From the NCBI GenBank assembly GCA_947172415.1, contig OX359195.1, positions 4,811,501 through 4,875,500 on the forward strand: a stretch of DNA of 64,000 bases, written 5' to 3'. This document shows, one piece after another, positions 34,237 through 58,955 of the stretch. The DNA is from Chondrosia reniformis (lineage: Eukaryota; Porifera; Demospongiae; Chondrillida; Chondrillidae). Within the stretch, counting starts at the first letter, position 1; every line of letters starts with the position of its first letter. The position numbers and the translations under genes are program-made. The notes beneath the pieces were generated by a model. It searched no databases, was not told the origin of the DNA, and saw only the letters and a list, made by a program, of their open reading frames with translations.

Positions 34237-34245
34237 TATAAATAG
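34237..34245 (+). promoter_or_regulatory. TATA box of tyrosinase 1
   Basis: TATAAATAG, 88 bp before the ATG at 34325. The same word stands at nearly the same distance before tyrosinase 2. Confidence 0.65.
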
Positions 34246-34324
34246 GAAGATATCTGCGTAGGTTCTTACAACTCTTCCTCCTCAATCCAGAGAGAGCTAG
34301 TGGTTAGATTTGTGGGCTAACAAA

Positions 34325-36019
34325 ATGGCTACAGTAGCTAACTGTCTAGTGCTGGCAGTTTTACTTTTTTCTGACAGGTTTAGCTTTGTAAGTGGTCAGT
34401 TTCCCGCCGTTTGTAACACTGAGTATCACTTGACCAACAAGATATGCTGTCCTGATGACTGTAACACAGCTAGTGGAAGAGGAGTTTGTACTGATATCAC
34501 AACACAGGCTTCGGAGCAGTGGACATCTGCTGATCAAAACTCTGTACTCTCTGATATAGTCTGGACAATGGAAAATATTATTCCGCTTTCTGAATTTGGA
34601 AATAAGCTAGATTCCCGTCTCCGTTGGCCTACAGCTGTATTTAATGAAGTTTGCATGTGCAGTGATCCCTTCTTTGGACCCGATTGTAGTGAGTGCAAAT
34701 TTGGATATGAAGGACCTGATTGTGCCAATAAATCACAGCCTCTATTGCGACAACCTTATGTTGACTTGGAAGTAGCAGATCAAGAGGCAATTGTAAGCAT
34801 ATTGCATTCAGCTAAAGTTACTGACCATAAGCCTTGGGCTGTTATTGTTGATGAACCTGAAAGTGGCAGTAATGATACAGTAAAATTACAAAATGTGACT
34901 ACCTACCATCTGTTTGTCAATTTGCACTTTATGTCAGCAAGGGATGGTGATAGCAACTGTCAAACAAAATTTAATAGCAAATTCCTGAATATGACAGGAA
35001 GAGACTTGCAATGTTATGTTGATTTTGCCCATCAAGGACCTAATTTTGCGACCTGGCACCGATATTTTCTACTACTACTCGAAAGAGAACTTCAGAAAGT
35101 GTCTTTAAATCCTGAGTTTGCCCTGCCTTACTGGGACTGGGAGAGAGATGATGGTAGAAGCATATTAAACAATGATTTACTGGGTAACTTTGACTTAGAT
35201 GGTAAAGGTGACGCCAAAGTGTGTGATGGACATTTAAAAATTGGTAGAAACTGGTGGCATACAGTGTGTGACCAGAATTTCCAACTAAGAAATAATTTAG
35301 CAGATGGTGAAGAAGTAGAGTGTAGGATGACAAGGAAGGCTTGTGATGTCGATGAAGACTTAGAAAAGTTAAATGAACTTTGCCGATTTGGAAATCCAAA
35401 CCAGAAGAGGAAACTGCCTTATCCATTTGAACTTACAGAAGCATTAAAGGATTCCACCTTTGAAGAGCCCAATAGATCATGGAATGAATCTCAAGGTTTT
35501 AGAAACAAATTGGAAGGGTTTGAAACACTTTCCTGTGGAGATGATCCCGATATAAACTCTAGTGATAAAGCCCTTCACAATAAAGTACATATCTATATTA
35601 ATGGACACATGGATAGTGTACCTACTGCTAGTAATGATCCTATTTTCTTCTTTCATCATGCCAACGTTGACCGTATCTTTGAAATGTGGTTAAAGGAGTA
35701 TGGTGACAATGTTAGTGCATATGAGCCTAAAACAAATGGTCATCCAGGACACAATGTTGATGACTGGCTTGTTCCACTCTTTCCTCTTATGACCAATGCT
35801 GACATGTTTAAACGATCTACTGAACTAGGTTATGAATATAATAACCTTGAATTTACAGATCCTAACACTTGTGAACGACTATCTGCTCCACCTATACGTT
35901 TGACAACAAGAGGAACATCTACTCCAGCCACCAAAGGACCCTATACAGACTCTGCAAGAGCTCTCTCATTCTGGATCAGCTTGATCATAGTTCCTCTTGT
36001 CATGTTGCTAGTCTTGTAG
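34325..36019 (+). CDS. Secreted/GPI-anchored tyrosinase 1, 564 residues, single exon
   Basis: A type-3 copper enzyme that hydroxylates monophenols and oxidises diphenols to quinones. The ATG at 34325 begins a signal peptide (CLVLAVLLF, ending near GQFPAVC). A Cys-rich region (residues about 30-135) includes CMCSDPFFGPDCSECKFGYE, like the EGF-like part of vertebrate TYR/TYRP. CuA ligands are H201, H236 and H245 (FATWHRYFLL). CuB ligands are H418, H422 and H445 (FFFHHANVDRIFEMW). The PYWDWER motif is present, and several N-x-S/T sites suit a secreted glycoprotein. A Thr-rich linker leads to a hydrophobic tail (SFWISLIIVPLVMLLVL) that ends the protein, typical of a GPI-anchor signal rather than the TM-plus-cytosolic tail of vertebrate enzymes. 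No intron interrupts it, unlike neighbouring genes. A TATA box lies 88 bp upstream. Substrate is unknown. Confidence 0.92.
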   Translation: MATVANCLVLAVLLFSDRFSFVSGQFPAVCNTEYHLTNKICCPDDCNTASGRGVCTDITTQASEQWTSADQNSVLSDIVWTMENIIPLSEFGNKLDSRLRWPTAVFNEVCMCSDPFFGPDCSECKFGYEGPDCANKSQPLLRQPYVDLEVADQEAIVSILHSAKVTDHKPWAVIVDEPESGSNDTVKLQNVTTYHLFVNLHFMSARDGDSNCQTKFNSKFLNMTGRDLQCYVDFAHQGPNFATWHRYFLLLLERELQKVSLNPEFALPYWDWERDDGRSILNNDLLGNFDLDGKGDAKVCDGHLKIGRNWWHTVCDQNFQLRNNLADGEEVECRMTRKACDVDEDLEKLNELCRFGNPNQKRKLPYPFELTEALKDSTFEEPNRSWNESQGFRNKLEGFETLSCGDDPDINSSDKALHNKVHIYINGHMDSVPTASNDPIFFFHHANVDRIFEMWLKEYGDNVSAYEPKTNGHPGHNVDDWLVPLFPLMTNADMFKRSTELGYEYNNLEFTDPNTCERLSAPPIRLTTRGTSTPATKGPYTDSARALSFWISLIIVPLVMLLVL

Positions 36020-37144
36020 CACCAAATTAGGTTATTTGGAATTGTAACTCAAACTCAAAACTAACAATTAAGAAAACTGTATATAAGTACTTACGTAGCT
36101 GTTATCCCTCATTAGTGTTTTAGAAGTGTTAATCATTACATTACATATAGAAGACATGTGAATTAACTTAATTCGGTACTTTTTAGGTCAGTTGTCCAGA
36201 CCGTACGTTGCAATTGGTAATCGGTAAAAAGGTTATTCTAGTGGGAAAGTTTGTTCAAATGGTAGTCGCGAGTGCTAACCGATTATCGATTGCAATGTCT
36301 GGTCTGGACAACTAACCCAATATGTATTGTAATAAGAACTAAATACATGTACGTATGTAACTATGTTCAATTGATATACACAAGTAGTTTGATTCTTGAT
36401 AATACAGTATATGTACGTACATACCTCTTGATTGACTAATTAACAAATTACCTGAAGCTAAACCAATTATGTACCTCTAGTGGCTAACCGATAATTACTG
36501 TTTTTGGTTTAAATGTTTGTAACTGACCTGTATGTTTAAATATGCTTGCGTAATAGGCTAATTGGATTTGGACTGGAATTTACTTGTCTACAGTCAACAA
36601 CTTGGACACTGTCAGATGGATACAGAATGCAAGCTTGTGTGTGTATGTAGATAAAGCATATTGATGTGATGCTGAGCAAAGCATTTGTAAGCTCTTATCA
36701 GAGAGTACGGTACTACTCTGAGTAGGGATCATATACATACTGGTTGTTTCGTTTTCCTATATACGTATAATCCCAAAATAGGCTGAAAGCTGCCGAAACA
36801 AGGCTATGTAGAGTTAAATATAGAACAGCTAAAAACTTGTCTTTAAGGCAAGTGATCCACTGGCAAATGAACAAAATTTGGGTCAACCGAAATTTGAAAT
36901 CTCCCATTTTCTTCTTCATCTTCTTTGCCTGCTGTGACTAAAAAAGGAAATAAGCTTTCGGACTACTTCTTAAGCGAAACGACTCTAAATTTTCCACACA
37001 ATTTTTTGTAGGAGTGAAAGCGATAGTTTTTGTGTCCCCAGAGTCAAGGCTTCAATAAATTCACCATTTTAATGGCATCCTATTAAGTCTGAGATTGCGA
37101 AACCAAAATGGAAATATAAAAATCTAATTCCTAGCTCTTGCTCC
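36020..37144. other. Intergenic, with an inverted-repeat element
   Basis: Contains the inverted repeat at 36187-36315. A minus frame at 36919-36713 (MKKKMGDFKFRLTQ, hydrophobic) has no known relative. The rest is AT-rich. Confidence 0.4.
36187..36315. mobile_element. Inverted-repeat (MITE-like) element
   Basis: GTCAGTTGTCCAGACC and TTGCAATTGGTAATCGGT at the left pair with ACCGATTATCGATTGCAA and GTCTGGACAACTAAC at the right. The core of about 40 bp has no coding potential. Confidence 0.65.
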
Positions 37145-37720
37145 ACAGAAACAAGGAAGGATGTTACACAATGAAGCATTAGCTGGGCATGAATCATACA
37201 AGCAAGGGTACCGGTGTTACATGTTGCAACATATCCCTACATTTGGCAGCATTTTGCATTGTGTATGTGCTTCCCACTAGAAAATGCATGGTTTCTACTC
37301 TTATTCTTCCCATGTACATAGGTATATATAGTACTACCATACAGGAAGCCTTTGTCATTCCATTCTTATAACTAGTGTAAACAAATGTTTTATTCCTTGA
37401 GCCATTTAAATTTACACATAGCATATGTGTAACTAAAATCTTATTTGCTCTACTCAAGAGAAATATTGTTACCTCTATGTCCTAGTTCCACTTATTTGCA
37501 GCCTTTACGCTTACTGATAATTTCACTGCATGTCTTTGTGTGGAGCATACATATTAGGGGACTGTAGCTTCATCTGCCCCAATTCCTATACCAATGCTGC
37601 CAGACGTAGGGATATGGTGCAACACCCTTGCTTGTATGATTCATGCACAGCTAATGCTCTTCACTGTGTAACATCATTTCTTGTTTCTGTATTTTTGTGC
37701 CATCCCTACATCTTCACTAT
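37145..37720. mobile_element. Non-autonomous element with about 100-bp terminal inverted repeats
   Basis: The left arm (ACAGAAACAAGGAAGGATGT to CCCTACATTTGGCAGC, about 37146-37255) is repeated inverted at about 37592-37700 (GCTGCCAGACGTAGGGATAT to ACATCATTTCTTGTTTCTGT). One end of the same family lies alone at about 22245-22340. No transposase frame inside. Confidence 0.65.
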
Positions 37721-37880
37721 TTTTGAGAAACGTTTAATGTTTCTAGTTAATTTGCTATCAGTAAATTTCCTCTATAATTGGCTTACCATTCATAAACTGT
37801 TTGTTAGTGCAAACCTTAAAAGTGTGTGAGTGATGTTTGTAAAGCATACGTATAAGTAGTATATATGATGCTGTATTTAA

Positions 37881-38282
37881 ATGATAGGGATTTCTTCTAA
37901 CTGCACCAAACTTATTGTTGAGGTGGTTCATCTTTTAGTCTTTTTGAACATCTTAGAGACGCAGTTTGTTCTTGTAAGGATTCGGATGTTTCAACTCTTG
38001 GGGGCCCTGGGGAAATGGTGGGAAAATTTCTTCATTAAAGAGCCAACCTCCAGCAGTCACCATCAGTTGTTGAAGAAGACTCCCAGGGTCAAAACGTCCA
38101 AATCTCTAAAAGAACCAACTGCATCACTAGACACTCAAGAGACCATGATGAACCATCTCAAAGATGCTCTATTTAGCTGTACTGTGTATATTGAAGATTT
38201 GAATGTAGAGGTCTATTGTAATTGCCAAACAACACATTGTATACTTAATATTATGTGTGAGAGCAGCCACCCTTGTTGTTAA
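37881..38282 (+). other. Unrecognised open frame, 133 codons
   Basis: The part from about 37970 is less AT-rich and protein-like (LGALGKWWENFF, TPRVKTSKSLKEP, MMNHLKDALFSC). An acceptor-like TTCTTGTAAG precedes it. No partner exon or family could be found; it may be an old transposon or exon remnant. Confidence 0.22.
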
Positions 38283-40959: not shown

Positions 40960-40968
40960 TATAAATAG
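40960..40968 (+). promoter_or_regulatory. TATA box of tyrosinase 2
   Basis: TATAAATAG, 86 bp before the ATG at 41046. A TGATTCTGG word occurs upstream here and upstream of the TATA box of tyrosinase 1. Confidence 0.65.
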
Positions 40969-41045
40969 ATGCCTACCTGTTTGCCTTGCTAGTTTATCAT
41001 TAGTAGCCAATTTTCACTCATTACTATATTTGTGATATTCTGAAG

Positions 41046-42773
41046 ATGAGAATTCTGTGCCTTTTGTCTGCAGTTTTGCTATTTACTGACAGGCCTATCC
41101 CCATTAATGGTCAGTTTCCAGCTGTTTGTAATACTCCTGAGAACTTGAATTCCAAGAGGTGTTGTCCTAATAATTGCAACGCAACCAGTGGAAAAGGAAA
41201 CTGCATTGATATCACAAATGTGAAAAATACCCAGTGGCTAAATTCTGATTCATCTGTTGTGGATAAAATTGAAAACATTATTCCAAGTATGGTTGGTAAT
41301 AAGGTAGATTCTCGTCTCCGTTGGCCCACAGCTGTATTTACTCATGTTTGCAAGTGTATAGATCCATACGCTGGACCGGATTGCAATGAATGTATATTTG
41401 GGCGGAAAGGAGATGCCTGCAATAAAAATTCCAATCTTGTACGTAAATCAATAGTAAGCATGACAGAAGAACAAATAGGAACACTTTCAGAGCAAATATA
41501 CAATGCTAAGAATTCCAATCGTAAAGAATGGGCCATTATTGTAGAAGAACCTGAAAAAGGCAGCAGTGGTACTGTTGTAATGGAAAATGTTAATGCCTAC
41601 CATCTCTTTGTGTATCTACACTTTATGGCAACTAGGGATAATGATGGAAGCTGTAAAGATATAGGTAATAAAAATGTTACTGTAGATTTTGCTCATGAAG
41701 GACCCACCTTTGCTACTTGGCATAGATATTATCTACTATTGTTTGAGAGAGAGATGCGTAAGGAGGAAGACAATGCAGATTTTGTGTTGCCCTATTGGGA
41801 CTGGGAGCGAGATAGAGGCTTAAGGATATTAAAAGATAGATATTTTGGTAGTTTTGACTCAGACAACACACAACCAAATGATGAGTGTCTAAATCCAAAG
41901 ATTAATGGTAGTGATTGGATAACAGTATGTGATCATCCTTTTCAAATACAACACCGCAACAAGAAAACAGATACAGTTACAGTATGTGACGATATCAGAA
42001 GACTTTGTAGTGTGACTGCAGACTTGACCAAAGATGATTATAAAACACTTTGTCGTTATGGCAACAAAAAAGAAGATAACAAAAAAGAAGGGCGACTACT
42101 TCCTTTTCCTTATGAACTTGAAGAAGCACTGAAAGATCAGAGATATGAGGAAGGAACTGGGCCATGGAATGGAAATTCAGGTGCTTTTAGAAACAAATTA
42201 GAAGGCTTTGTCGGAATGAATTGCATTGAGAGTGGGAGTGGAATAGTAACAAGTTCTGCTGAAATGGGTTCTACTGAAGATGAGCCACAGAGAGCCCTCC
42301 ACAATCAGGTTCACCTTTTTTTTAGTGGGCACCTTGGCAATGTACCTTCAGCAAGTAATGATCCAATATTTTTTCTCCATCATGCAAACATTGATCGAAT
42401 GTTTGAAATGTGGTTGAAAAAGTATAATGCTGATGTAAGTGCATATATTGCAGAATCAGGTGGTCATCCAGGGCACAATCTTGATGACTGGCTTGTTCCA
42501 CTCTTTCCTCTTATGACCAATGCTGACATGTTTAAACGATCTACTAACTTAGGTTATGAATACGAAAGTCTTGAAGTTGTACAGGCAAAAGACTGTGGTC
42601 AACTGTCAGGAGATTCACCCACTGATTCTCCTCCTACCACTCGCTCGTCTGGTTCTGGTGGTGGTTCTGGTGGTGGTTCATCTGGTCAAGGAGATCATTC
42701 CTCTGTTGTTCATGTGTCAGCTTGGTTGATTGTCCTCACTCTTCCTCTTGTAATGCTGTGGAATGCTTACTAG
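41046..42773 (+). CDS. Secreted/GPI-anchored tyrosinase 2, 575 residues, single exon
   Basis: Same architecture as tyrosinase 1. Signal peptide at residues 1-22 (ILCLLSAVLLF), Cys-rich EGF-like region with CKCIDPYAGPDCNECIFG at about 102-119. CuA ligands H192, H217, H226 (FATWHRYYLLLFE); CuB ligands H419, H423, H446 (FFLHHANIDRMFEMW). PYWDWER and the GHPGHNLDDWLVPLFPLMTN block are conserved. It differs from gene 1 by a Gly/Ser-rich stalk (SGSGGGSGGGSSGQG) before the C-terminal hydrophobic segment, again at the very end and GPI-like. The stalk would hold the catalytic domain away from the membrane. It is the parent or closest sister of the pseudogene at 44758-47320: the pseudogene and its 3' flank match this gene and its 3' flank. 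No intron. Confidence 0.92.
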   Translation: MRILCLLSAVLLFTDRPIPINGQFPAVCNTPENLNSKRCCPNNCNATSGKGNCIDITNVKNTQWLNSDSSVVDKIENIIPSMVGNKVDSRLRWPTAVFTHVCKCIDPYAGPDCNECIFGRKGDACNKNSNLVRKSIVSMTEEQIGTLSEQIYNAKNSNRKEWAIIVEEPEKGSSGTVVMENVNAYHLFVYLHFMATRDNDGSCKDIGNKNVTVDFAHEGPTFATWHRYYLLLFEREMRKEEDNADFVLPYWDWERDRGLRILKDRYFGSFDSDNTQPNDECLNPKINGSDWITVCDHPFQIQHRNKKTDTVTVCDDIRRLCSVTADLTKDDYKTLCRYGNKKEDNKKEGRLLPFPYELEEALKDQRYEEGTGPWNGNSGAFRNKLEGFVGMNCIESGSGIVTSSAEMGSTEDEPQRALHNQVHLFFSGHLGNVPSASNDPIFFLHHANIDRMFEMWLKKYNADVSAYIAESGGHPGHNLDDWLVPLFPLMTNADMFKRSTNLGYEYESLEVVQAKDCGQLSGDSPTDSPPTTRSSGSGGGSGGGSSGQGDHSSVVHVSAWLIVLTLPLVMLWNAY

Positions 42774-44757
42774 AGGCAGTCTAGCACCCAAGGAACGCCT
42801 AACAGTAGTAACTATATACGTAGTACCCATATGTACACCATACGTTAGTATTCCTTTATCTTTAATTTGTAACCTTTTTGCTATCAATTAACTTGAACTG
42901 ATAGAATGTTTTTCATATTAGGTAAATTTACTGATTAAACTTTGCAAATTTGATTTATATAATTCATAAGTTACGTATATGCTCGAAAGAGGCCATTTTT
43001 GTTCATATATATACATATACCCAGCTTTTTAGGATTGCTATATTTGTCATTTGATGTACGTATGATGGTATTCTTATGTTATGGGTAAGTACAACAGTAT
43101 AATGTAGTGTAAACACAGCAGTAGTAACTAGTGGTTATGTATCCATGGAAACATCTTGCAGTAATAATTCTTGTCTTTGTTGTGCTTCTTTTGCTATCGA
43201 TGTAGTATTACTTTATGCTTCAGTATTCTATTACATTTTTTACAATCATTATGACAATGTTGCAAAACTGATGGGAAATAGTGATAAATTTGTTTATGGG
43301 AGTGTTATTCTGTAATCCTATTGTAATAGGTAGGTATTGGGCTTACCTAGTCTCTTCAGTACTAGTGTCATGAATATATTTGTATGTACCTATATTGTCC
43401 TGGGAAGGTAGGGGGTGGTCTACTGGTGGGAAGCCTGACCAAGTTCTATTATCTTTAATTTGAATGTGCAATGAATATACTTACATGTAACTCCTAAGGG
43501 TGACCTTATTTGTTTATAACAGACCTACACATACCTACTTATAGTATAGGTAAAAGGTATAGATAAAGACATACAATTGACAAAGTATGAGTTATGGTTT
43601 CATATAATAAGCTCTCCCTTTCAGAAGAATATCTTCCAAGGGAATTGAAATGTCTAGTCTGTCTCCCAGTCAAATTAATGTAAAGTATGAGTGAACTAGT
43701 TGATTCTAAGAAGTGCATTCTCTACCTAACAATGTAGGCGGCTTCAGACTTCTCAAAGATGTTGCTATATCTGTGGGAAGTTAACTGTTTATTTTAGAAG
43801 AGTAGCTTTATGTATTTAGGAGTTAATACAAACTTGCATTCCAGCATGCATAGACACCTTTGAATATAATCACTGGAGAAATGTATTATCCAAGGTACCA
43901 GTTATAATCTGTAGTGTGAATACAATGTCATGAACATATGTATTTTCATCAGCTGCTACAAATTTTCTTTATCAATTTTTAGTGGAAACTCTATGACAGA
44001 GGTCATTTATTATGTGCAATGAATTTACTTACTCAAGTGGTCATATGGGCCTCCAATCAATTTGTGACATTGTTTCCAAACTATAATTAACAAGTAATAC
44101 AGTATTAGTAGCACTGTATGTGATGTTAGAAGCAGAGGTGAGAGTGCTGCTACAGTGACTAGCATATGTACATGAATATGGTAACGAAACAAGACCTTTT
44201 TCCATCCTACTTCAGCTACCATGTTGGGTTTTCCCAATAACAGTAGTAATATGTTAAGTTTCAGTAGCTACGTAGCCATGCCCCTTCTGTACATAATCAT
44301 TGTCTTGTGTCCTTACATTTGCCAGCTTAAAGATGTGACAAGGTACGTATAGGCAGAGGTGACAGTTTAGTAATCAAGGGAGTGGTCCTTTGGGGAGGAG
44401 AACAGATAAAATTGTTTTCTTAAGCATCTTAAAGTATACAATGAATATGCTCAGTAACTGCTAATAGGGGTAAAGGTGAGTGAGTCTTGAGGTAATTGAA
44501 GTGCTGGGGCCATAAATGTATCCCATAAATGTACATACACATATATTTCCTACCTGCTATAAAAGTTAAGACTTGAAGCATGCAATAATATTAATTATGA
44601 TGTTTATACCTTCATACTGTAATGTACATTTGTACATGTATTTGAAGGGAGTTAATTGCATAAAGCCTGTGCAAAGATATGATGTGATAGAAATATTCAA
44701 TGGAATGTATTAAGCCAAATCATAGCCATTGTATAGGCTTTGTACAATTAACCTGTA
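42774..44757. other. Repeated 3' flank of tyrosinase 2
   Basis: 42860-43260 is repeated after the pseudogene at about 47315-47740. 43300-44670 is repeated at about 61190-62545 and partly at 38.99-39.8 kb. No coding frame is kept among the copies, so these are flanking DNA carried along with the tyrosinase duplications. Confidence 0.6.
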
Positions 44758-47320
44758 GTTTATCCACATTAATGGTCACTTTCCAGCTATTTGTAATACT
44801 CCAGAACTTGAACTTCAGGAGGTGTTGTCTATAATAGTAATAATAATAATCCAGCAGGGCGACCCCCCTTGGCCTCATGCTTTTCTGCCTTATGATCCAT
44901 GAGCTTGTATCCAGTCTGGTATATATCAGAGTTCAAGGACGACGGCACCATGGGAGGCAACCTTGATGACCTATATAACGGCTGATTTGAAGAGCATTGA
45001 AGAGCAAAGCTAGGCCAGAGGACTGATCCTTAATATGTCAAAATATCAAAGCTGATTTCTCATGACTGGTCTGTAGCGGATGCATGATTTCCAACTTCCC
45101 TGGCCTCAGGTTCATTGACCCCAGGCAGCAACTTTGTTGGGACCTCCCCTGGGATGCAATTCTGTGGTTAAATGCCTAGATGACCAACTTCTCCAGTTGA
45201 AGTTGGTAGGGAGTGTCTTTGTCTCCTTCAAGTCCATGATGCTATTACTATTCTGTGTCACTCCTTTCCATCCTAAAACCTTTACATATCCTACCCACGT
45301 TCCCAGCATTTTCCTCACCTGGCCTGTTATTCTGGGAATAGCAGCTCCTGTCAATCGTATCCAAGATTGCCAACATTGATTTCCGACCAGGAGTTCCATC
45401 TTGGCTGCAAGCATCACTGCCAGTTGGATCTGGCGGACTGGGGTTTAGGAGTGCCTCTCATCTTGCACCTTATGCCCTCTTGGCCCCCTGCTGATGGAGC
45501 GTCCGCCCTGGTGCAGCAGCTACTTCCACCACACTTGGCATCCACCGCCTACAGCAAAGAGATTCATCCCTGATCGTATGGCATCTTCGCCTCCCAGAGA
45601 AGACACTCCTCTTCCCACATGCAGTTCACACAAGCGACAGAAGTCATGGGACAAAAATGAAGGGTTGATCAAATGTTCCATGCTTTCCTGTCCAACTGCA
45701 ACGACGAGGTATCCAGAGCCTGCCTCTTAACAGTTTGTTCCAGCCAGTCTGGTGCATGGCTCAGTGCACTCCCAGTCTCGTCTCTTGGTCTGCAAATGTC
45801 TAATGACACTATTTGGATTGCTATTAGCCTCAGAGTGGGGGCAGCAATTTGTCAACCACACTCCTGTGTGTTCTGTGGCAGGGGGGTGGATCAGCTCGGT
45901 CATCATGACCTGTCTTGTACGTCAAGGATGCACTACACTCCACAACATCCTCAACAACATCATCTACCACTCCCTGGCCACAGCAAAGGTGCCTTCTCGT
46001 CTGGAACCAATAGGGCTATGCCGTGCCGATGGAAATCGCCCAGATGTCACCAGGATCCCGTGGTCACAAGGGATATTCCTAGTCTGGGACGCCACATATG
46101 TGGATATCTTCTGCTAATTCCACAGAGATATGCTAAGGAGGCTGGCACAGTGGCTGTATATGCAGAGGGAGAAAAAGTGAGGATCTACTTACACCAGGAC
46201 CACGGGTACTCTTTCCAGCCTGTTGCCCTGGAAACTACGGGTTTGGTCGGACCAGAGTCCATGTCCTTCTTGAAGGACCTTTACCACTGCATTAAGATGA
46301 CCAAAGGAGAGCCTTAGTCATTTACATTCCTGATGCAGAGGCTCTCTGTGGCTGTCCAAATGGGGAATGCCACTTCAGTGCTGGGCACACTCAGGTCTCT
46401 CGATTTGTTTGATAACTATTAGGGACAATTCATTTTTATTACTATCAATGTATATGAACTACTTATTATTATTACCTACATAATAATAATAATAATCCAG
46501 TGGATCCTCATCTCATGTTGGCAAGTGTATAGTTCCATACTCTGGACCAAATTGCAATCAATGTATGTTTGGGCGGGAAGGAGATGCCTGCAATGACAAT
46601 TCCTATCTTGTACGTAAATGAATTATAAGCATGACAGAAGATGAGATAAGGACACTTCAAGGCAAATATACAATGCCAGGAATTCCAACTGCAAAGAATG
46701 GGCCATTATTGTAGAACCTAACAATGGCAGCAGTGGTACTGTAAAAATGGAAAATGTTAATGCCTACCATCTCTTTGTGTATCTACACTTTATGGCAACT
46801 AGGGATAATGATGGAAGTTGTAAAGATATAGGTAAAGTTATTGTAGATGTTTCTCATGAAGGACCCACCTTTGCTACTTGGTATAGATATTATCTACTAT
46901 TGTTTGAGAGAGAGATGCGTAAGGAGCAAGGCAATGAAGATTTTGTGTTGCCCTATTGGACTGGGAGTGAGAGAGAGGCTTAATGATAATAAAAGATAAA
47001 TATTTTGGTAGTTCTAACTCAGATAATACACAACCAAATGATGCGTGTCCAAATCAAAAGATAAATGATTATAATAGGATAATAATAACAGTATGTGATC
47101 ATCCTTTTCAACAAAGCAACAAAACGAAGAAGGAAGTTACAGACTGAGCCAAAATCAGAAAGCTTTGTAGTGTGACTGAAGACTTAAAGATCAGAGATAT
47201 GAGGAAGGAACAGTTGGGCCATGAAATGGAATTCAAAAACAAATTAGAAGGCTTTGTAAAAATGATTTGCACACTACATACAAGGGAGTCAGATAAATAC
47301 AAGTTCTACTGCTGCTGAGT
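44758..47320 (+). pseudogene. Tyrosinase pseudogene split by a retroelement
   Basis: 44758-44836 matches the mature N-terminus of tyrosinase 2 (its 41096-41166). The copy resumes at about 46507 (matching from 41338) and runs through the CuA region (TFATWYRYY: the third CuA His has become Tyr) to about 47300. Damage includes a TGA at about 46619, loss of one G in PYWDWER near 46959 that shifts the frame, further indels, and complete loss of the CuB region. Its 3' flank then continues as in tyrosinase 2. A retroelement occupies 44855-46483. Confidence 0.88.
44855..46483 (+). mobile_element. 5'-truncated retroelement with reverse transcriptase and C-terminal endonuclease-like region
   Basis: Flanked by TAATAATAATAATCCAG on both sides (44838-44854, 46484-46500), a likely target-site duplication. 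The left part keeps reverse transcriptase pieces: (Q)QGDP-L-G-L-MLFCL with an extra C, then DDGTM(G)G. The right part (45673-46317) has GAWLSALPVSSLGL, a zinc-knuckle-like C-x2-C...H...C (CVFCGRGVDQLGHHDLSC) and R-P-D with WDAT downstream, a layout seen in elements with a restriction-like endonuclease. Two frameshifts break the reading frame. It is GC-richer than its surroundings. 5' truncation plus target duplication suggests target-primed insertion. Its family is uncertain. Confidence 0.72.
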
Positions 47321-47845
47321 TTGTAACCTTTTACCAATCAATTAACCTTGATGGTATGTGTTTGATATTAGCTAACTTTACTGATTAAACTTTGCAAATT
47401 GGAACTATTTAATTTGGAAGTTAACAATGCTCAGAAGAAGCCATTTTTGCTCATATACGTACATATACATATGTACAGTGTGAAATCTTTTGGGTTAGCC
47501 GTATTTGTTGTTTGTTTGTACTGTGATGGTATTCTTACGTTGTGAGTGCAACGGTAATGTAGTGTTAAATCCAGCAGTAGTAACTAGTGGTTTTGTATCC
47601 ATGGAAACACCTTGCAGTAATAGATTTTGTCCTTGTTGTTGTGCTTCTTTTGCTATCAATGTAGTAGCATTTTATCTAATTAATAGGACATACATATATT
47701 TCAGTATTATATAACATTTATTTAAGTCATTATAACAATGTTGCAAGATTGATGATATGTATACACTTACATCATATATATGATGATTATTAGAGTGACA
47801 ATAAAATAGGCTTACTAGTCACAAAAAATTGGTGGGGTGATTACA
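47321..47845. other. 3' flank of the tyrosinase pseudogene
   Basis: Copies 42860-43260 (for example ACTTTGCAAATT and AGCAGTAGTAACTAGTGGTT). No gene. Confidence 0.6.
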
Positions 47846-48296: not shown

Positions 48297-49943
48297 ACAT
48301 GTATATTCAATAAAGAGGTTAATAATTGAGGTAATAATTGATGTATGTATATATAGTAAAAAGAAGCTAGGATATATTATACGATATACGTATACTATAA
48401 TTTAGTAGCATATATGTTGGCAGGTGTTCTAGCTTCCTAAGCTTCCATCTTCCCCCTTGGCCATGATTGTTTGATATCCTAGTATATAGTTTCATAGAAT
48501 ACATACTTGTTATTAGTGAAGTCATGAGTGATATTGAGCTGTGCCATTCTGTAGAATCCTGCCCAGTAGAGGAATTGTACTTAAAAGCTACTCTGATCCC
48601 TCTAGCAATCAAGAATTGTAAGAACCAGATTCCTCAAGGTGTGTAGGTAATTATAAGTTGCTTTAATTGGTTTATGGTAATTGATAATCTCTTGGGAGAA
48701 ATTGTTTACATTTCATTGGTGTCTTTATTCATTAGATTGCAACCCAAAATTGAGCACATATAGCGTACTCAGTTTTACATATAGCGTTCTAAATTATATA
48801 CAGTATATATAATATGGATAGTCATACTTCTCCGGTTTCAATCTAAGCTAGCATGATATGCACACTTCAAGGAAAATTGTAAAAATACGTAAGGTTGAGA
48901 TGGTAATTTTAATAATCAAAGTTCCTTTGTTGACAAGACCTGATAGAATTGTTTTCTTTAAGCATTCTTAGAATAAACAATGAATATACTCAAAGTTGCC
49001 AGTAATAAGGGTAATTACCAATAGGCCTTACCCCTGTGGTAATAGAGGCAAAAACCTATGGATGTACTTACATTACCTATACATACACTCCTTTGTCGGG
49101 GCAACTGCCTGTGTTTATAAATTTCGTAACCGTGATATAACAGGATTTAGGAAGCTATATACTGCATCGGCTTCTTAAATCCTGTTATATCCCTGCCCAA
49201 ATATGGAAGGTAGTACCGGTAATTGATTTCATGAAACACAATACCAAGCTTATAATACAATAAATCTCCTTACATTTAGGACAGTTGAAGTAGTCAAGGT
49301 AATAGCATTCTATAAAGTCGTCAGTGTTTAAACAAAAACAACCAGAGCCATCCTGAAAGTCCCACCAAAATAGGGATAAAAGCGACGGAGTATATATCAC
49401 TTATACCACGGCTCTGAGGTGTATATGGATTTTATATGTACAAATCACGAGGGCAGCGTGGTATAACTAATACTTATACTTACCTGCTGTACAACTTAAG
49501 AAACAGAAAACGTAAACTTGACATATTGCTTACTGAAATACAGTGAGATTCACATGTAATTTTGATAGAAATAATCACTGGGATATATTATTATAATTTC
49601 TATCCCATCTTTGCACTGGCTTAGTGCAATTAAATTCCTTTTCACACATGATATTATAGATATTTCTCCATCCTTCAGTGACACTAACTGTTTATATCAT
49701 TGTGTCCATCAGTTACAGATATAGTCAGATACATTTAACATTATACTATACAGTTAGTGCCATAAAAGGAGTTGTATTTATCTCTTTGATAAAATAAAAT
49801 ATCGATCATTATAACTGCTACTTACACAAGTAAATAAACAAGTATTTCCAGTTTAAAAACTCATGGGGCTACTGCCCCCGAATTAACTCGAACTACTTGG
49901 CCGCATCGTTGGGCTTTGATGTCCCTTGTGTACAAGTTACAAA
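48297..49943. other. Intergenic with palindrome
   Basis: Contains the hairpin at 49133-49190. A short + frame near 48520-48645 (CHSVESCPVEELYLKATL) and a minus frame 49400-49185 (Cys/Trp-rich) are unexplained but too short to call. Otherwise AT-rich. Confidence 0.35.
49133..49190. repeat. Long hairpin
   Basis: GATATAACAGGATTTAGGAAGC pairs with GCTTCTTAAATCCTGTTATATC (one mismatch) around a loop of about 14 nt. Confidence 0.75.
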
Positions 49944-50036
49944 ATGGTCTCTAACCCTGTTGATTATGCGAATGCATGCATGCAACCGACCGTCGGTATT
50001 CTTAGCTCCCTCATAAGGCAAATCAAATCTGCTGTG
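49944..50036 (+). CDS. Candidate first exon of an unknown gene
   Basis: ATG in good context (CAAAATGG) opens 31 codons (MVSNPVDYANACMQPTVGIL and on to IRQIKSAV) ending at a consensus donor GTAAGA. The sequence is richer in CpG than its surroundings, as in the other gene starts here. I could not find a following exon with confidence, so the gene may continue past the repeats or be dead. Confidence 0.32.
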
Positions 50037-51292: not shown

Positions 51293-51550
51293 TGATTGTT
51301 TAGCTATATGCCTATATATGATCTATTATAGATGTCTGTTATTAAGTATCACAATAGACCATGACCTCATAAGATCACAAATTATGTAGTTGATAAAACC
51401 ACCACATACAAATACTACATTAGAGTTAATAGGTACTATCCACTCCTTATAGTGTAAGTTGTCAGTTGTAATATGTGCATACATAAGTTGTACATGTTTG
51501 TACAATAATATCAATCTCTATATATTACATTCAAAACTGTATATTACAAA
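51293..51550. repeat. Downstream repeats of the Kelch gene
   Basis: 51371-51437 duplicates the end of the Kelch exon (minus strand reads IVPINSNVVFVCGG against VVPINSYTVFVCGG). 51293-51377 is also similar to 54566-54651 (GATTGTTTAGCTATAT and CACAATAGACC), so the kinase-Kelch gene is bracketed by direct repeats of about 85 bp. Confidence 0.6.
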
Positions 51551-54488
51551 TTAACACATTACAAGAAGTTCAGTTTTGTTTGTACAACTGTTATTATCCA
51601 TAGAACCACCACATACAAATACTGTATAAGAGTTAATAGGTACTACACAGGGATAAGTACATTCTGTATTAATGTTGCCTACTGCTGTCCATCTCTTCTG
51701 AGTTGGGTCATACACAAAAATGTCTGATCTTGCTTTGCCATCCAATCCTCCAAATAAGACTGGCAGCTTGCTGTTGAGTAAGAGAGATGATCCATTAAAC
51801 GGTGAATCAGCTATCTTCTCCCAAGTGACTGGTGATGATGTATTATCTCTGCTCTGTACTGACTTTTGTATTGCATTCCATGGTAACTTCCAATAACTCA
51901 TAGTTGGCTCCTCTGTAGCATTCATTCCTCCTCCTATATACACATATCCACTGGAAATAGTCATACCACATGAATATATAGGTTCTGGTAACTGTAGACT
52001 CCTCAGAGAGTACCACTGCTTTGATTCTGTGTTTAACACTTCAACTGTACTCACCGCTACTTCAGAAAGGCACCCACAAGCTGTGATCAAAAGGTTGTCT
52101 TCAAGTGCTACTCCAAATCGACCTCTAGGTGTTGGCATAGAAGGGTAGATTTCTTCCCAATGATCATTAACATATGTAGACAGCTTTCCTGTAACTTGAC
52201 CGGTAACTGCATCTGCTCCTCCAATCAGTGTCAGGTGACTTTGTATAATATCTGCTCCACATTCGTATTGTGGAATATCTGAAATTCTGGTCCATTTCTG
52301 ATCATCAATATGGTAGACCTGCATTGCCTTACAAAGGTCATTATTATCTAGAATTCCCCCTGTAATGAAGACCTTACCATCAAGGTAGTGTGCACTTGTA
52401 GCCCAAACAGCTACTGGCATATCTGGTAAGTTTGATTTAAGAAAGTGATGACCACTTAAGAGGAGATCACTCCTGAAACACTACAAAACAGAAAAGATCC
52501 AATTATATAATGTGACTGTAAAATATACATACGTATGTACATACAATGTTTACACACATTACTAGAGTGTAGTTTCACATAAATTATGTATAGAACATTC
52601 TTGTGTGAACAGATACCAGATACAGTTAGAGTATGTGTGTATGGATAGATAATCTATATAATAAAACTATACGTACCTTATAATAATAATATATAAGGAA
52701 GTACGTACATAAACAATATTTGAAGACATTATTCAGCGAAACATGTTACTACAGATCAAAGAGGGAGGTTGGGGACTTATAAATTAAATGATTAAATGGT
52801 TAAATTACGCAGAGGATCCGTAAAGGTACAATTGTATGTGTGTGAAAAATAATGCAATTTTTGAAAATTTGGCCTCTAAACAAATTTATGAGCTTTTTAT
52901 TTATGCATTTTTGTCTATTGATGGTCTACTGATTGTCGACTGTCTATTGATTAAGAAACATATCCACTCAAAAGAAAAACTTTCAAATAATTATTACATA
53001 GTGAACGGAAGTGACGATTCAACTCACTCAAAATGGCCTCTTCAAAGTTACTGCCAGTACTGATTCTTCTACGGACGCATTCACTGTTATAGTACACTTT
53101 GTATCAAAGCTTGAAGAACGAATTTATTGTAACGTGCTTGAAGTTGGCGTGGTCGAGTTTTATGAGGTAATAAAATAGTGCAATAGAAAAATCTATGCGC
53201 CCAGGCATTGCCTTGCATAATTCGCATAAATAAAACTCACGCATACATATTGTTGCTTTACCGTATATCAGATGTTAATGATATTCATAGAACACCAATC
53301 ATCACCAATTTAATGCAGTCAATCACTTTTTTAATTATGTATAATAGGCTCTACTGTGTACTCGCTTACATTGAGACTTTCACTATTCAGTTTCTTTGAC
53401 ACTTCATGAGGAGAGATCTGTACTGCTCCCATGTCAGATATCAGTAGCTATATAGAAATGAGGAAAGATAATGATATCACTTACATAGTCGTAATGTATG
53501 TAAAGACAGTATAAATCACTTGTACTCCATACATACTGCTATTTAAAAGGAGTTTTCATGACCAAAAACACTAGTCATACATTTCTCACTTAATACAATC
53601 CTAATATACATATTCCAAGTCAACATGTAGACTTACCTCATCATTAGCGTGTTCCTGTATTGCCGCATACAGTGCTTTTATCAGATCTTGGACTATTCTA
53701 ACATCAGGTCTGTTCTCATAGTTATCCTTCAGACACAACTTGATCAACGGCCTAAGAGAATGTTCACTTGACAGTTTAGATAGATCACCTCTCCGACGCT
53801 CTAACTCTGGTACAGTACCAATACCAACCAGACCACATGTTGGTTGGCACTGAGTAGCAATCTGCAACATCAGCACTCCTAAGGAGAACACATCCACCTT
53901 CACGCTGAAATGAGAATCGCCACTTTTCAGTGCTTCTGGTGGCATGTACACGACATTACCGGGAGCAGTAGTGCTCATGTATACGTCTCCGTTCTCCAGT
54001 AGTTTGGATTGACCGAGGTCGCTCACTTTCACGCTACCGTCTTCACCGATCAACACGTTTCTATCCGTCACGTCGCGATGGGCCACGGGAGGATTCCTTT
54101 CGTGAAGAAACTTCAGACTAGACGAAATTTTCAGACATATTTCCAATTGTCTCTTTTGGCTCAAAGTACCGCGATTTCGACTGAGATATTGACGGAGATT
54201 CTCCTTCATTCGTTCTAGAACCAACATGGGCTCGCCGGTCCTGCTTTCGAAGGCACCGTACGATTTGACGATATTGGGGTGGTCCTCGAGACTGGCTAGA
54301 AGCTGACATTCTCTGATGAAATCCTCGAGAGGTTTACCTTGAGCTATCTCACTGTGGACAGTTTTCACTGCTACAAGGCGACCATTAAATTCTCCTTCTC
54401 GTACAACACCATAAGCTCCTCGTCCAAGTTCTTTGGAAGAAAGCTTCAAGTTGGTAGGGCATTTTGGGAGGGGTGTACGTTCAGCCAT
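51551..54488 (-). CDS. Protein kinase - Kelch fusion gene (two exons, 593 residues as modelled)
   Basis: Exon 54488-53637 (ATG to GATGAG|GTAAGT) encodes a complete kinase domain. GRGAYGVV glycine loop at 22-29, VAVK with K42, E60, catalytic loop HRDVTDRN (137-144), DLG instead of DFG (157-159), PPEA (183-186) and D199. The HRD-x-x-x-R-N loop and overall look suggest a tyrosine-kinase-like (TKL) type. Exon 52480-51551 starts after TTTTGTAG, in the same phase 0, and encodes a six-bladed Kelch propeller; glycine doublets occur in VFITGG, LTLIGG, VYIGGG, PVLFGG and VFVCGG, with LLITACG as the odd blade. Kelch blades bind partners or substrates. The joining is inferred from phase, spacing and the lack of a promoter-like start before the Kelch exon; an extra exon in the 1.16-kb gap is possible. 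Confidence 0.65.
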
Positions 54489-54712
54489 ACTTTACGAGTG
54501 GGAGTGTTGAACATGTCATTACGTAACAATGGTCTATGTTTTACTGCATTCTTCTTTAGCTAGACATTGTGATTGTTTAGCTATATACGCCTACATAATA
54601 TCATATTGTCACAATAGACCTCACAAGATTACCTATGTAGTTTATACAATACTATTAAATATTTAATTTCTCACATGTAAACATGTACAGACAATAATTA
54701 AATGTGCAATAA

Positions 54713-56215
54713 TCAGTGAACAGTTCCATTTTCATTTTCATCTAAAGAGAAGAAATAAAGAAAAACATTTTAATTACAAAAGGTATCACCAACTAATCTA
54801 GACTCACTTTTCATTGTCCCCACAATGTCCGAAGGTCGCATAGTCTCTTCTCCACCTGGTTATATTCAATAAAAAGGAACAGAGTAGTCACATGATATAG
54901 TCACGTGACTAAACAACTCACTTTGATGCAGTAAGCCAACTGGTAAAGTAGAAGGATCACTGTGACTAGTCTGTATAGAGTTGGGATGGGAAGGGAGAGG
55001 CAGCACAGCACGTCCAGTGTCTCACCTCCATTCCTAATCCCCTTAGCCGGGAGTGTCAGGTCAACATCCTGAAGATCAGTCACAGCTGGAGGTGATGCAA
55101 TAGGCTGTCTAGTCTCTGAATAATCTAAAGTACCCACATTGGAGGTACTTGAAGAGGGAGATGGTTCTAGAAGGTCTGGCAAACCTTCCACACTAGGACC
55201 CATGTCCTCCAACAATGATGTCTGTATGCTAGGTTGACTGGAATCAGAGCTCTTCTTTCCAGTAGGATTTGCAGAAGGTAATAAAGCATGTTTCTGACTA
55301 GTTTCTTCTCCACTGACAACATCAGAGGGATCCTCAGATGGCGCTCAAATGCTACTAGTTTATCCAGCTTCTTCTCGTCCGGCTTATCTGTCTCACTGAG
55401 TACAGGCACCACTGCTTCAAAGGGATCTTCGGGCGGTGATCTACTGTCGGTATCCTCAGCTTCTTATGTCCTTCAATCTCCAGCTGTTTGGCCTCTGGTG
55501 TGGGAGGCTCTTCAGTAGCAGATCTGTCAACAGGAGATCTCACTTGATCCCTTTCCTGAACATTCCGTAGTGTGAAATTTTCAATCTTAGATAGAAGATT
55601 GCTAGTCATTAGACAATCACACTACAACCACACACGTACATAAAAATACACTATATGTACACAGTATAGGAAGCAAGTATATATATCATATATGGACCAT
55701 AAAATGATAGCAAAACCACAACTGTTGATCCTCTCATACATATGATACAGAGCAATCCTCAGTGGAGAGGACATAGACATTAATCTAAAACAAAATGTCT
55801 ACCAGCAACTGAACCCTTAGTCTGGCAAGCCAGACCTTATATCTTCCTCTTGAATACAAGTTAGACCAGACCCCTTACACTTTCAATGTGAAGCAGATCT
55901 GGCTCGCCAGACTACTGATCCCCTTCCATCTATACTACTGTAGACACTGAATAACCACTGACCTGATCTGACTTAACATTCTTTGGAACATCCAGCTGCA
56001 GTAACCTGTGATTGATCTTGTGTGCCCAACTGAGAGCCATCAGACCAGCTATCCTTATGTCATTGTCTCAGATGTCCAAATACTTTATGTGCCTATTTTC
56101 TGCTAAACTTTATGCTAAAGCTATAGCTCCTAAACAGTGATAGTCGTATGCCACATTAAAGCTAAATGAACTGGTAAAGATTGATCCTATATGATTGAGC
56201 TCATGCGAAAAGGAA
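54713..56215 (-). pseudogene. Truncated PPP1R37/LRRC68-like pseudogene
   Basis: From about 56215 to 55963 the minus strand encodes leucine-rich repeats (LAENRHIKYLDI, DNDIRIAGLMALSWAHKIN, LLQLDVPKNV) ending at a GTCAGT donor, with in-frame TAA and TGA stops. The pattern matches the last LRRs of protein phosphatase 1 regulatory subunit 37. Exon 55621-55026 follows in phase (SNLLSKIENFTLRNVQERDQ), then a Pro/Ser/Glu-rich stretch in which two frameshifts occur (near 55455 and 55345). Small exons 54855-54808 and 54741-54713 (TGA) complete the C-terminus in phase. The N-terminal LRRs are missing. Two stops, two frameshifts and truncation argue for a pseudogene; single-base sequence errors are the alternative for the frameshifts. 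Confidence 0.6.
55819..55915. mobile_element. Short MITE-like inverted repeat in pseudogene intron
   Basis: TAGTCTGGCAAGCCAGA at the left and TCTGGCTCGCCAGACTA at the right are near-perfect inverses about 97 bp end to end. No coding content. Confidence 0.65.
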
Positions 56216-56370
56216 AAATAAGAAAAAGCCTCACCTTCACATGTTAATCTCTTGCGTTCATTAATAAAAGCTTAGTCAAATATCTGTTGACTAAAAAACT
56301 CGCCAGACTGACCTCCTTTCCATCTATATACTTTTTTATACTTGAGAATAACTACAGACCTGTACTTCAA

Positions 56371-56673
56371 TTAAAAATGTCTTCCTCTAATTTCGCGTGC
56401 AAAATCTTCAGCCTTTAAAGTCCCATCGATGGATTCACAGTTTTTGTTAAACACAGAATAGGCGCTGGGTTCCCAAGGTCGTCTCCTACTGCCTCTCAAG
56501 CTGGCGTAGATGAGATAGAAGGCGGAAAGCATCAGAAAAACACTTACAAATCCAAAGTGTATTAACAGTCCCAATCCTCCCAACCAGATGACGCACTTAA
56601 CGGCCACGAGGATCCAGGAACACGTTAGTGAATCTGAGGTATGGGCTGTAGCACTCTCATTCTTCTCTTCAAC
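56371..56673 (-). CDS. SAYSD1: SAYSD1-like exon (SAYSvFN domain), 5' part not found
   Basis: The minus-strand exon 56673-56371 encodes 100 residues and a TAA. A polar start is followed by one long hydrophobic segment (VIWLGGLGLLIHFGFVSVFL and on to AFYLIYASLRG), then the family signature SAYSVFNKNCESIDGTLKAE and a REIRGR ending. In animals SAYSD1 is a membrane protein of the ER/vesicle system. An acceptor-like CGATTAAG precedes GTTGAAGAG. The frame is closed by TGA just upstream, and no first exon is visible in the 600 bp before tyrosinase 3. The gene may have a distant first exon or be truncated. Confidence 0.7.
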   Translation of the reverse strand, partial: VEEKNESATAHTSDSLTCSWILVAVKCVIWLGGLGLLIHFGFVSVFLMLSAFYLIYASLRGSRRRPWEPSAYSVFNKNCESIDGTLKAEDFAREIRGRHF

Positions 56674-57266
56674 CTTAATCGGTCCAGCGGGGCATATTCA
56701 CTTGCCTTAAAGGTCTATTTAGAATATGTATATTGTATAGTTAGCTATACATAGCCTTATTTTGTCGATTTTCGGCCTATTTCGGGATTTCGCTCCTATA
56801 CGTATGGGCAAAACGAATAAAACCGCGTACTCCCCGATAGTCCTGGGAAGCTAGGGAGTGGTCAACTGGTTGGAAGCCAGACAAAATTCTATTCTTAGAA
56901 TATACAATGAATATACTCAAATTATTTACTGCTAAGGATGTACATCAATTATTTAGTATTTAACCTTATTCTTATTCAAAACTCTACAGACAAGATAGAT
57001 AACCATGTAGGAAAGGTTGCTTAAATTATTTGTGTCAGCATGTTACTTAGTCAATTAATAACTGTCCTTAGCTCTTATGACACAATATTAGTGAAAGCTT
57101 CTTAGTAATGTACGTACATATACATGCAAGTTAAAGATTTGTTTTGTCTGTGTATTATGCAGTAGGGAACAGCTCTTATCATCCGAAGAAACTATGAATA
57201 TAATTATGCTGTTAGCCAGGTACCTACCTATGAATATGTTGAATGTTTATAACAGTTGGTCTCAAG
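56674..57266. other. Spacer between SAYSD1-like exon and tyrosinase 3
   Basis: Includes another copy of the dispersed flank repeat (TCCTGGGAAGCTAGGGAGTG, about 56845-56930). No coding sequence seen. Confidence 0.45.
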
Positions 57267-57275
57267 TATATAAAG
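57267..57275 (+). promoter_or_regulatory. TATA box of tyrosinase 3
   Basis: TATATAAAG, 69 bp before the ATG at 57336, matching the spacing seen at the other two tyrosinase genes. Confidence 0.6.
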
Positions 57276-57335
57276 GATATATCTGAATATTTTATTACCC
57301 ATGTTACTGCGTATACACTGTAGCTGCTAGTAGTG

Positions 57336-58955
57336 ATGTTACTAAGGATCAGTGATATCTTTTTTACTATGTTGCTATTCTGCCAAACCTATGGACAATT
57401 TCCCATTGAATGTAGCTCTGATGAAAACCTTAGGGACAAAATCTGCTGTCCTAATAACTGTAATGGAAGGGGAAGTTGTGTAGACGTTACCTCTGAAGCT
57501 ATGACGCAGTGGAATAGATCTAATAGCTCTATTGTGAACATATTGCAATCAAAGATACCAAACGTTTTTGAAAAAATTGATTCACGTTTATTTTGGCCGA
57601 CACAAGTCTTCACAAGGGTATGCCAGTGTAATGGCAACTTTTTTGGTCCTAGTTGCAGTGAGTGCAAATTTGGATGGAGTGGAAGTGACTGCTCCACAAT
57701 GAAAGAAACTATTGAACGCCGCTCTTTTTATAGCTTATCAGATGCTGAGAAAAGGAACTTTACCAGAATTATCAGAATGGCAAAGGATGAAACCACACTA
57801 AGGTGGGCTATTATTTCTAGCGAGTCTTCTGTTAACACAACTGATCCTATTACACTCCAACCTGTTTCAACATATGACCTTTTTGTGTATCTCCATTTCT
57901 TAACAACAAGAGAAAAGGTTGATGCTTGCAAAGGCATATTCACTAGTAACAGTAAGGACAGTAGACCAGATTTTGGACATGAAGGTCCAGCGTTTCTCAC
58001 TTGGCATAGGTATTTCCTTTTGTTTATTGAGAGGGAACTGCAGAAGATATCAAATAATGATAATTTTGCATTGCCTTACTGGGATTGGGAGAAAAATGAT
58101 GGTAGAGAGATTATGAAGAATGGATATCTGGGAGAATTTGATTTTGATTATATGTATGATAAAAATAAGTGTAGGTACCCAAAGATTGAATCTAAACAGT
58201 GGATTACTGTATGTGACAAAGCTCTCCGGGAAAAGGATGCTACATGTAGTCAACTAAGGGAAGTGTGTAATGTTGCAGAGGACTTAACAAAGGGCAACAA
58301 CCTATGCAGGAACGGAACCCAGGGCATTACCATGGATGATGATCGACGTTTTCCAGCTGCTTATGAAATTGTGGAGGCTTTGAATAAATTCGAATATGAA
58401 AATAAAGCAGAAGATTACACTTGGATACAGTCAGTTGGATTCCGAAACGCTTTAGAGGGCTTTGTTGGTTTGCACTGTGACAGTTCAACTTTAATGTTAT
58501 CATCTGATGAAAAAGGAAATGAAGATAATGCTCACGGGTATCTTCACAATGCTGTTCATCTGTATATAAGTGGCCATATGTTTTTTCCTCCTTCTGCTAG
58601 TAATGATCCCATTTTCTTCCTTCATCATGCAAATATTGACCGAATCTTTGAAATGTGGCTAAGGAAATATCCAAATGCAACCTATTACCCAGAAACAGGT
58701 GCTCATCCAGGACATAACCGTGATGACTGGCTAGTACCACTTTTTCCTCTCATGACTAATGGAGAAGTGTTCAAGAGATCATCTGAATTGGGATATGAGT
58801 ATGAAGACTTGAATGTTCCTCCTATTAATAGCTGTGATCCTCTTTTAAAACCCCCCGATGATGATCCTGGTTCTTTTGCAGTTCTAAAACCAGCTGTATT
58901 CTTGTCAGTTCTTTTCCCTCTTGTGATTTCAATGTTGCTTTATTGGCAAATCTGA
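57336..58955 (+). CDS. Secreted/GPI-anchored tyrosinase 3, 539 residues, single exon
   Basis: Third member of the cluster and the most divergent. Signal peptide at residues 1-20 (FFTMLLFCQTYG); Cys-rich EGF-like region with CQCNGNFFGPSCSECKFGW at about 96-115. CuA ligands H187, H215, H224 (FLTWHRYFLLFIE); CuB ligands H404, H408, H431 (FFLHHANIDRIFEMW). PYWDWE and GHNRDDWLVPLFPLMTN are kept. The C-terminal tail LSVLFPLVISMLLYWQI ends the protein, again GPI-like, after a short Pro/Asp linker with no Ser/Gly stalk. Intronless. I chose the ATG at 57336 because no in-frame ATG precedes it and it follows the TATA box at a normal distance. Confidence 0.92.
   Translation: MLLRISDIFFTMLLFCQTYGQFPIECSSDENLRDKICCPNNCNGRGSCVDVTSEAMTQWNRSNSSIVNILQSKIPNVFEKIDSRLFWPTQVFTRVCQCNGNFFGPSCSECKFGWSGSDCSTMKETIERRSFYSLSDAEKRNFTRIIRMAKDETTLRWAIISSESSVNTTDPITLQPVSTYDLFVYLHFLTTREKVDACKGIFTSNSKDSRPDFGHEGPAFLTWHRYFLLFIERELQKISNNDNFALPYWDWEKNDGREIMKNGYLGEFDFDYMYDKNKCRYPKIESKQWITVCDKALREKDATCSQLREVCNVAEDLTKGNNLCRNGTQGITMDDDRRFPAAYEIVEALNKFEYENKAEDYTWIQSVGFRNALEGFVGLHCDSSTLMLSSDEKGNEDNAHGYLHNAVHLYISGHMFFPPSASNDPIFFLHHANIDRIFEMWLRKYPNATYYPETGAHPGHNRDDWLVPLFPLMTNGEVFKRSSELGYEYEDLNVPPINSCDPLLKPPDDDPGSFAVLKPAVFLSVLFPLVISMLLYWQI

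Follow-up and report, generated by a model that had tools for sequence, protein, structure and literature searches.

Intronless gamma-class tyrosinases in the sponge Chondrosia reniformis form a tandem cluster and carry candidate GPI-anchor tails

A 64,000-nucleotide stretch of contig C7 of the demosponge Chondrosia reniformis (C7:4811501-4875500, hereafter the window) contains three intronless genes for tyrosinases of the animal gamma class, the class of the vertebrate enzymes TYR and TYRP, and a fourth lies just beyond its end. In the whole assembly (117,379,552 bases in 15 contigs) we found eight open copies, all of which (8/8) are single uninterrupted open reading frames (ORFs) running from the signal peptide through the C-terminal tail. 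We think it reasonably probable that the demosponge lineage carries an intronless tyrosinase family of this class, whose founder would have lost, or never had, coding-region introns before the present copies diverged. The family would then have expanded, at least partly through plain duplication of DNA, both as a tandem array on C7 and onto other contigs, with birth and death of copies and a likely switch in the membrane anchor of its products.

The three genes in the window are all encoded on the forward strand. T1 (34325..36019, 564 amino acids) has a signal peptide, a Cys-rich domain, a tyrosinase domain at residues 193-457 and a tail resembling a glycosylphosphatidylinositol (GPI) signal; T2 (41046..42773, 575 amino acids) has a Ser/Gly-rich stalk before a tail of the same kind, and T3 (57336..58955, 539 amino acids) ends likewise. 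All three match the Pfam Tyrosinase profile PF00264 (E-values of 1.3e-39, 9.4e-40 and 3.2e-38 for T1, T2 and T3) from profile position 2 or 3 to position 213 of 214. T4 (L010:1769-3319, 516 amino acids) lies 1.8 kb beyond the window end. A first-pass annotation of this DNA had described three complete, same-strand tyrosinases with six copper-binding histidines, and the forward-strand ORFs, their profile matches and the invariance of these histidines in all eight open copies uphold that description. The cluster on C7 as a whole holds four open genes, one clear pseudogene (psi1) and one weak remnant (psi2).

The genome search with PF00264 returned at least ten matches, namely T1 to T4, a copy on contig C5 (587 amino acids), a copy on contig C9 (536 amino acids), a near-identical pair on contig C2 (559 amino acids each), psi1 and one divergent protein on C5. 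As the search scores only the best candidates, all copy counts given here are lower bounds. The two members of the C2 pair (loci L007 and L008, at about 7153217 and 7177661) sit approximately 24 kb apart.

By their predicted design, all eight proteins are gamma-class tyrosinases. Each begins with a signal-like segment (hydrophobic 19-mers starting at residues 1-6, mean Kyte-Doolittle hydropathy 1.22-2.49), followed by a Gly or Ala immediately before the motif QFP, the mature start in 8/8 and in TYRP1; signal peptides were judged from hydropathy and the position of QFP, not by a trained predictor. Ten cysteines fall within residues 21-140 of every copy, and T1 aligns with TYRP1 across this Cys-rich region. 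Six histidines, which we take to be the copper ligands, are invariant in the alignment of all eight (T1 H201, H236, H245, H418, H422 and H445), as are the Glu of an LEG stretch (T1 E397) and the Asn that follows the first copper-B histidine (T1 N419). The equivalents of these two residues in bacterial tyrosinases are reported to favor monophenol hydroxylation.

From residue 25 to residue 506, T1 runs co-linear with the TYRP1 ectodomain, and the family profile aligns with TYRP1 in one stretch (positions 23-493 of 540, E-value 9.6e-83). Of the solved structures, TYRP1 (presumably the human protein) gives the strongest match in a single stretch; multi-unit hemocyanins (two or three, depending on the search) outrank it through the summed scores of their repeat units. 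In two of these hemocyanins, as in the bacterial tyrosinases, the similarity lies around the copper sites, and the Cys-rich N-terminal domain is outside the matches seen. The likeness to vertebrate TYR, TYRP1 and DCT thus takes in the signal peptide, QFP (in TYRP1), the Cys-rich and tyrosinase domains and the six copper histidines. The sponge copies differ in that six of the eight have no cytosolic tail (the C9 copy has 2 residues, the C5 copy about 20) and in that they are intronless, whereas the vertebrate genes are multi-exon.

Annotated transcripts of C. reniformis have on average 7.20 exons in Ensembl and 7.91 with BRAKER3 (PMC12181767). ATG-to-stop ORFs of at least 500 amino acids number three in the 64-kb window, all of them tyrosinases, versus two in 200 kb of random genome (20 of 60 drawn stretches, all from four contigs); one of these two encodes filamin repeats and the other has no Pfam match. 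The open copies were recognized by being open, and the genome search itself proceeds exon by exon. The absence of introns that had been claimed for T1 to T3 stands, and the proposal of a shared intronless founder is supported by the single-ORF structure of every open copy found; that founder is likely older than the C7 cluster. The sharp contrast that had been drawn with multi-exon neighbors is weaker than claimed, because an adjoining 295-amino-acid kinase (53601-54488, reverse strand), which covers positions 4-255 of the 258 in the kinase profile, likewise consists of a single ORF.

TATA motifs precede all four genes of the cluster. They lie 88 bp before the ATG in T1 (34237..34242), 86 bp in T2 (40960..40965), 67 bp in T3 (57269..57274, with the pattern TATAWA at 69 and 67 bp) and 62 bp in T4, and the C2 pair carries the pattern 50-46 bp before its ATGs. 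TATAWA is present in 11.4% of 2,000 random 60-bp windows of the region, so its occurrence in 4/4 cluster genes is unlikely to be due to chance. The motifs announced by the first-pass annotation are therefore present before T1 to T3; their positions suggest that every open C7 gene of the cluster has a TATA promoter of its own, 62-88 bp before the ATG. If the motifs are promoters, their proximity to the ATG would leave a leader too short for an intron in the 5′ untranslated region.

The C-terminal ends show the most variation among the otherwise uniform proteins. As had been noted for the window proteins, the ends are hydrophobic; the final 19 residues are free of charge in all three (3/3). The C5 copy ends in a strong transmembrane helix followed by a cytosolic tail of about 20 residues with basic residues among them; the C9 copy, of an intermediate type, has a strong helix followed only by Cys-Arg. 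The remaining six (T1 to T4 and the C2 pair) have a weaker helix, which either ends the protein or has 2-5 uncharged residues after it, with no basic stop-transfer residue and with small residues at omega-like positions. Mean hydropathy of the C-terminal 19-mer is accordingly 3.58 in C5, 3.05 in C9 and 2.12-2.70 in the six. Of all these results, we find this graded series from C5 through C9 to the rest the most interesting.

We scored these tails with a rule for a GPI-type signal (a small residue, another two positions further, then after a spacer no charge and a mean hydropathy above 1.2). The six tails pass the rule, and none of 27 control ORFs of at least 250 amino acids does. From their composition, the tails of T1 to T4 and the C2 pair likely fit a GPI signal better than a transmembrane anchor.

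We built a tree from the eight sponge proteins, TYRP1 as the sole other animal tyrosinase and eight prokaryote proteins, taken from 12 that were translated out of 49 loci found. The sponge rows and TYRP1 are separated from the prokaryote rows with branch support 100/98, and the eight sponge rows group together (93/94). Within the sponge family, T1 and T2 are sisters (98/98) and the C5 copy falls outside the other seven (98/99). A test of exclusive monophyly of T1 to T4 gave an approximately unbiased (AU) p-value of 0.264.

In the account we favor, each product would enter the secretory pathway, lose its signal peptide before QFP and fold its Cys-rich and tyrosinase domains. It would bind two coppers through the six histidines and oxidize phenols to o-quinones. 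The C5 member would remain anchored as a type I membrane protein, about 20 of its residues facing the cytosol, and T1 to T4 and the C2 pair would most likely have their hydrophobic tail replaced by a GPI anchor and be displayed on the outer cell surface. Chondrosia reniformis has no mineral skeleton. Quinones made at the surface could tan collagen or other matrix in the cortex, or make melanin there. A more tentative extension, which we rate below an even chance, is that a transmembrane pigment-type enzyme became a GPI-anchored surface phenoloxidase by way of a C9-like intermediate, that the surface form expanded, and that it tans the collagenous cortex; the set would then be the first of GPI-anchored tyrosinases in the literature searched. 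Should the tails prove to be GPI signals, sponges would have shifted a pigment-class enzyme from an internal or sorted membrane to the surface, and both anchor states would coexist in one family. One animal could then be used to test which role early animal tyrosinases had, in pigment granules or in the tanning of extracellular matrix, and intron-free genes are convenient for expression.

Several observations weigh against this account. The GPI-type rule was of our own making and was set after the tails had been seen, with no trained predictor; it is also passed by 4 of 81 control ORFs of at least 100 amino acids, and some of the 27 longer controls are exon-like or repeat ORFs. As C5 and C9 fail it, the GPI-like tails first proposed for the cluster are seen, by this simple rule, in six of the eight copies. 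The genes were read from DNA, and their transcripts may be spliced to a downstream exon that encodes a cytosolic tail. TATAWA occurs only at 124 bp or more before the ATG in C5 and at 36 and 34 bp in C9, and its background rate is that of random windows, not of this sponge's genes. A predicted structure of T3, based on an alignment of the three proteins from the window, has a mean predicted local distance difference test score of 31 and lends the copper site no structural support. The direction of change from transmembrane to GPI depends on the prokaryote-rooted tree, in which several branches are long and TYRP1 is a single other animal row; without the prokaryotes, and with TYRP1 as sole outgroup, most forks are open and a grouping of C5 with TYRP1 is tolerated (AU p-value 0.581).

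Ordinary membrane tails are a rival reading, which we regard as unlikely though far from negligible: the proteins would be membrane-bound without a cytosolic part, or would have their true tail on an unseen downstream exon, and would reside in vesicle membranes like vertebrate TYR. A transmembrane region belongs to the definition of the gamma class, together with a signal peptide and a Cys-rich region, in the part of Aguilera et al. (2013, PMC3658974) available, and the helix and cytosolic tail of C5 and the strongly hydrophobic 19-mer of C9 before Cys-Arg are of this kind. The tails of the other six copies, however, have no basic stop-transfer residue, a lower hydropathy than the C5 and C9 helices, and small residues at omega-like positions, features that agree better with exchange of the tail for a GPI anchor.

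The history of the cluster can be followed most closely at T2 and its decayed copy, psi1. A 5′ piece of psi1 (44761..44836, forward strand) shares 87% nucleotide identity with T2 41096-41172, and the main piece (46512..47271, forward strand) is T2-like with in-frame stops (46512-47185 is 85.5% identical to T2 41341-42025, and 47178-47271 is 78% identical to 42123-42225). The similarity continues past the gene, into two segments of copied 3′ flank on the same strand (47320..47754, 74% to 42866-43273; 48873..49014, 73% to 44329-44473). As coding and 3′ flanking DNA are both shared, psi1 is a tandem DNA duplicate of T2. The two pieces are divided by a retroelement-like, probably long interspersed nuclear element (LINE), stretch of about 1.7 kb (44837..46511, forward strand, with its ends set by the limits of T2 similarity). 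It holds an ORF (45661-46314) with 173 protein matches genome-wide, some of which are pieces of one copy; the ATG-started form of this ORF (45673-46314) has no Pfam match, and it is from the wording of the ORF that we take the stretch to be a LINE fragment.

The C2 pair gives a second view. The DNA shared by the two copies begins 47 bp before the ATG and reaches at least 1.2 kb past the stop, with a synonymous divergence (dS) of 0.04 and a nonsynonymous divergence (dN) of 0.002; their upstream regions differ, the TATA motif marking the point where the similarity begins. T1 and T2 have a dS of 1.13, and the remaining older pairs are higher and often saturated, yet their frames are still open. 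As synonymous changes have approached or reached saturation in most pairs, we quote no dN/dS for these. Local expansion, the other part of the earlier proposal, is supported by the sisterhood of T1 and T2 and by the decayed tandem copy of T2 with its 3′ flank.

Repeated insertion of reverse-transcribed tyrosinase mRNAs would account both for the lack of introns and for the spread of copies over C2, C5, C7 and C9. The intronless state of all open copies, on four contigs, agrees with such an origin, as does the presence in the genome of the LINE-like family described above. T1 and T2 have coding sequence alone in common, with no similarity above the threshold between their flanks. The surroundings of T2, T3 and T4 do hold short stretches of similarity, each present at several places, which look like a dispersed repeat. 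A retrogene, however, should have copied neither flank nor promoter, which is not what psi1 and the C2 pair show: the former brought 3′ flank along and the latter at least 1.2 kb of downstream DNA. These two duplications, the only ones traceable, took place at the DNA level, and on the C7 and C2 flanks that were compared, retrocopying as the engine of expansion, which the first-pass annotation had entertained, is thus unsupported. The same-strand tandem order and the TATA motifs at similar places before T1 to T4 and the C2 pair, which retrocopies would lack, likewise argue against it, and we consider this origin improbable beside an intronless founder and DNA duplication.

An intronless tyrosinase gene acquired horizontally from bacteria, such as symbionts, is the least credible origin and close to negligible in our estimate: bacterial genes are intronless, the specimen was symbiont-rich in the available text of PMC12181767, and 49 bacterial or archaeal loci encode relatives, but all 49 matches begin at query residue 125 or later, so that none reaches the Cys-rich domain, the best segment of each is 23-49% identical, QFP and the ten-cysteine domain were not seen by eye in the 12 translated prokaryote relatives, and the 100/98 branch parts the sponge rows and TYRP1 from the prokaryotes.

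Tyrosinases of sponges and of other animals with linked gamma-class genes offer partial comparisons. The accessible part of Aguilera et al. (2013, PMC3658974) names poriferan members of two classes, a gamma-class tyrosinase and a beta-class one, the latter a different kind of protein from the Chondrosia family. The same text describes linked gamma-class genes in amphioxus, attributed to tandem duplication; they are alike in class and in tandem linkage, and belong to a different lineage. In the available text of PMC12665527, Sycon ciliatum has a cluster of tyrosinase proteins, and two tyrosinases of Halisarca dujardini, of unstated class, have a signal peptide and no detected transmembrane region. 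It further reports that tyrosinases were not found in Amphimedon, and suggests matrix cross-linking through DOPA-quinone. On the poriferan tyrosinases, the accessible parts of these two papers speak neither of clustered genes without introns nor of GPI-type tails. Esposito et al. (2012) took a Suberites sequence as outgroup, according to the portion of PMC3334994 available. We found no report of GPI-anchored or intronless tyrosinases in the literature searched, which leaves most subscription journals outside it.

Besides the open copies we found psi1, broken sets of pieces on contigs C1 and C2, the divergent protein on C5 and a marginal match on C11 to the tail region of the C5 copy (E-value 0.00995). 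Protein searches with T2 and the C5 protein located broken tyrosinase pieces with stops at C2 6271644-6272428 and C1 2396290-2396817, the latter 75-78% identical to the C5 transmembrane copy; we read both as probable pseudogenes. In the window, the weak remnant psi2 consists of two forward-strand segments similar to T2, one from the copper-A region (59328..59384, 72% over 57 bp, E-value 1.3e-5) and one from after the copper-B region (60858..60924, 79% over 68 columns, E-value 1.7e-9).

The divergent C5 protein (C5:7417379-7418392, equal to L012:4380-5393, reverse strand) is apparently multi-exon, with further exons to about 8985. It has many sushi repeats (two ORFs confirmed by Pfam, the rest by eye) and a single tyrosinase domain (67.9 bits), in which Trp-Asn-Arg replaces Trp-His-Arg at a usual copper ligand. 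From this substitution it is probably a copper-less tyrosinase-like protein.

A scan of the window against Rfam gave no matches at gathering scores, and a search for relatives in a viral collection gave 34 pattern matches, none of which was confirmed. Between psi1 and T3 lie, all on the reverse strand, the single-ORF kinase, a kelch-repeat ORF (51551-52420) and a SAYSvFN-domain ORF (56374-56697); in a Pfam scan of 10 ORFs, nine of them from the window, the last gave the sole match above the cut-off. A TIR-domain ORF (L010:3667-4272) lies 0.35 kb downstream of T4, and an integrase-like ORF with a repetitive acidic end (L011:7828-8901) is, by eye, probably a retroelement remnant. The window also contains a GC-rich minisatellite region (17468-21108) with units of about 61 to 373 bp.

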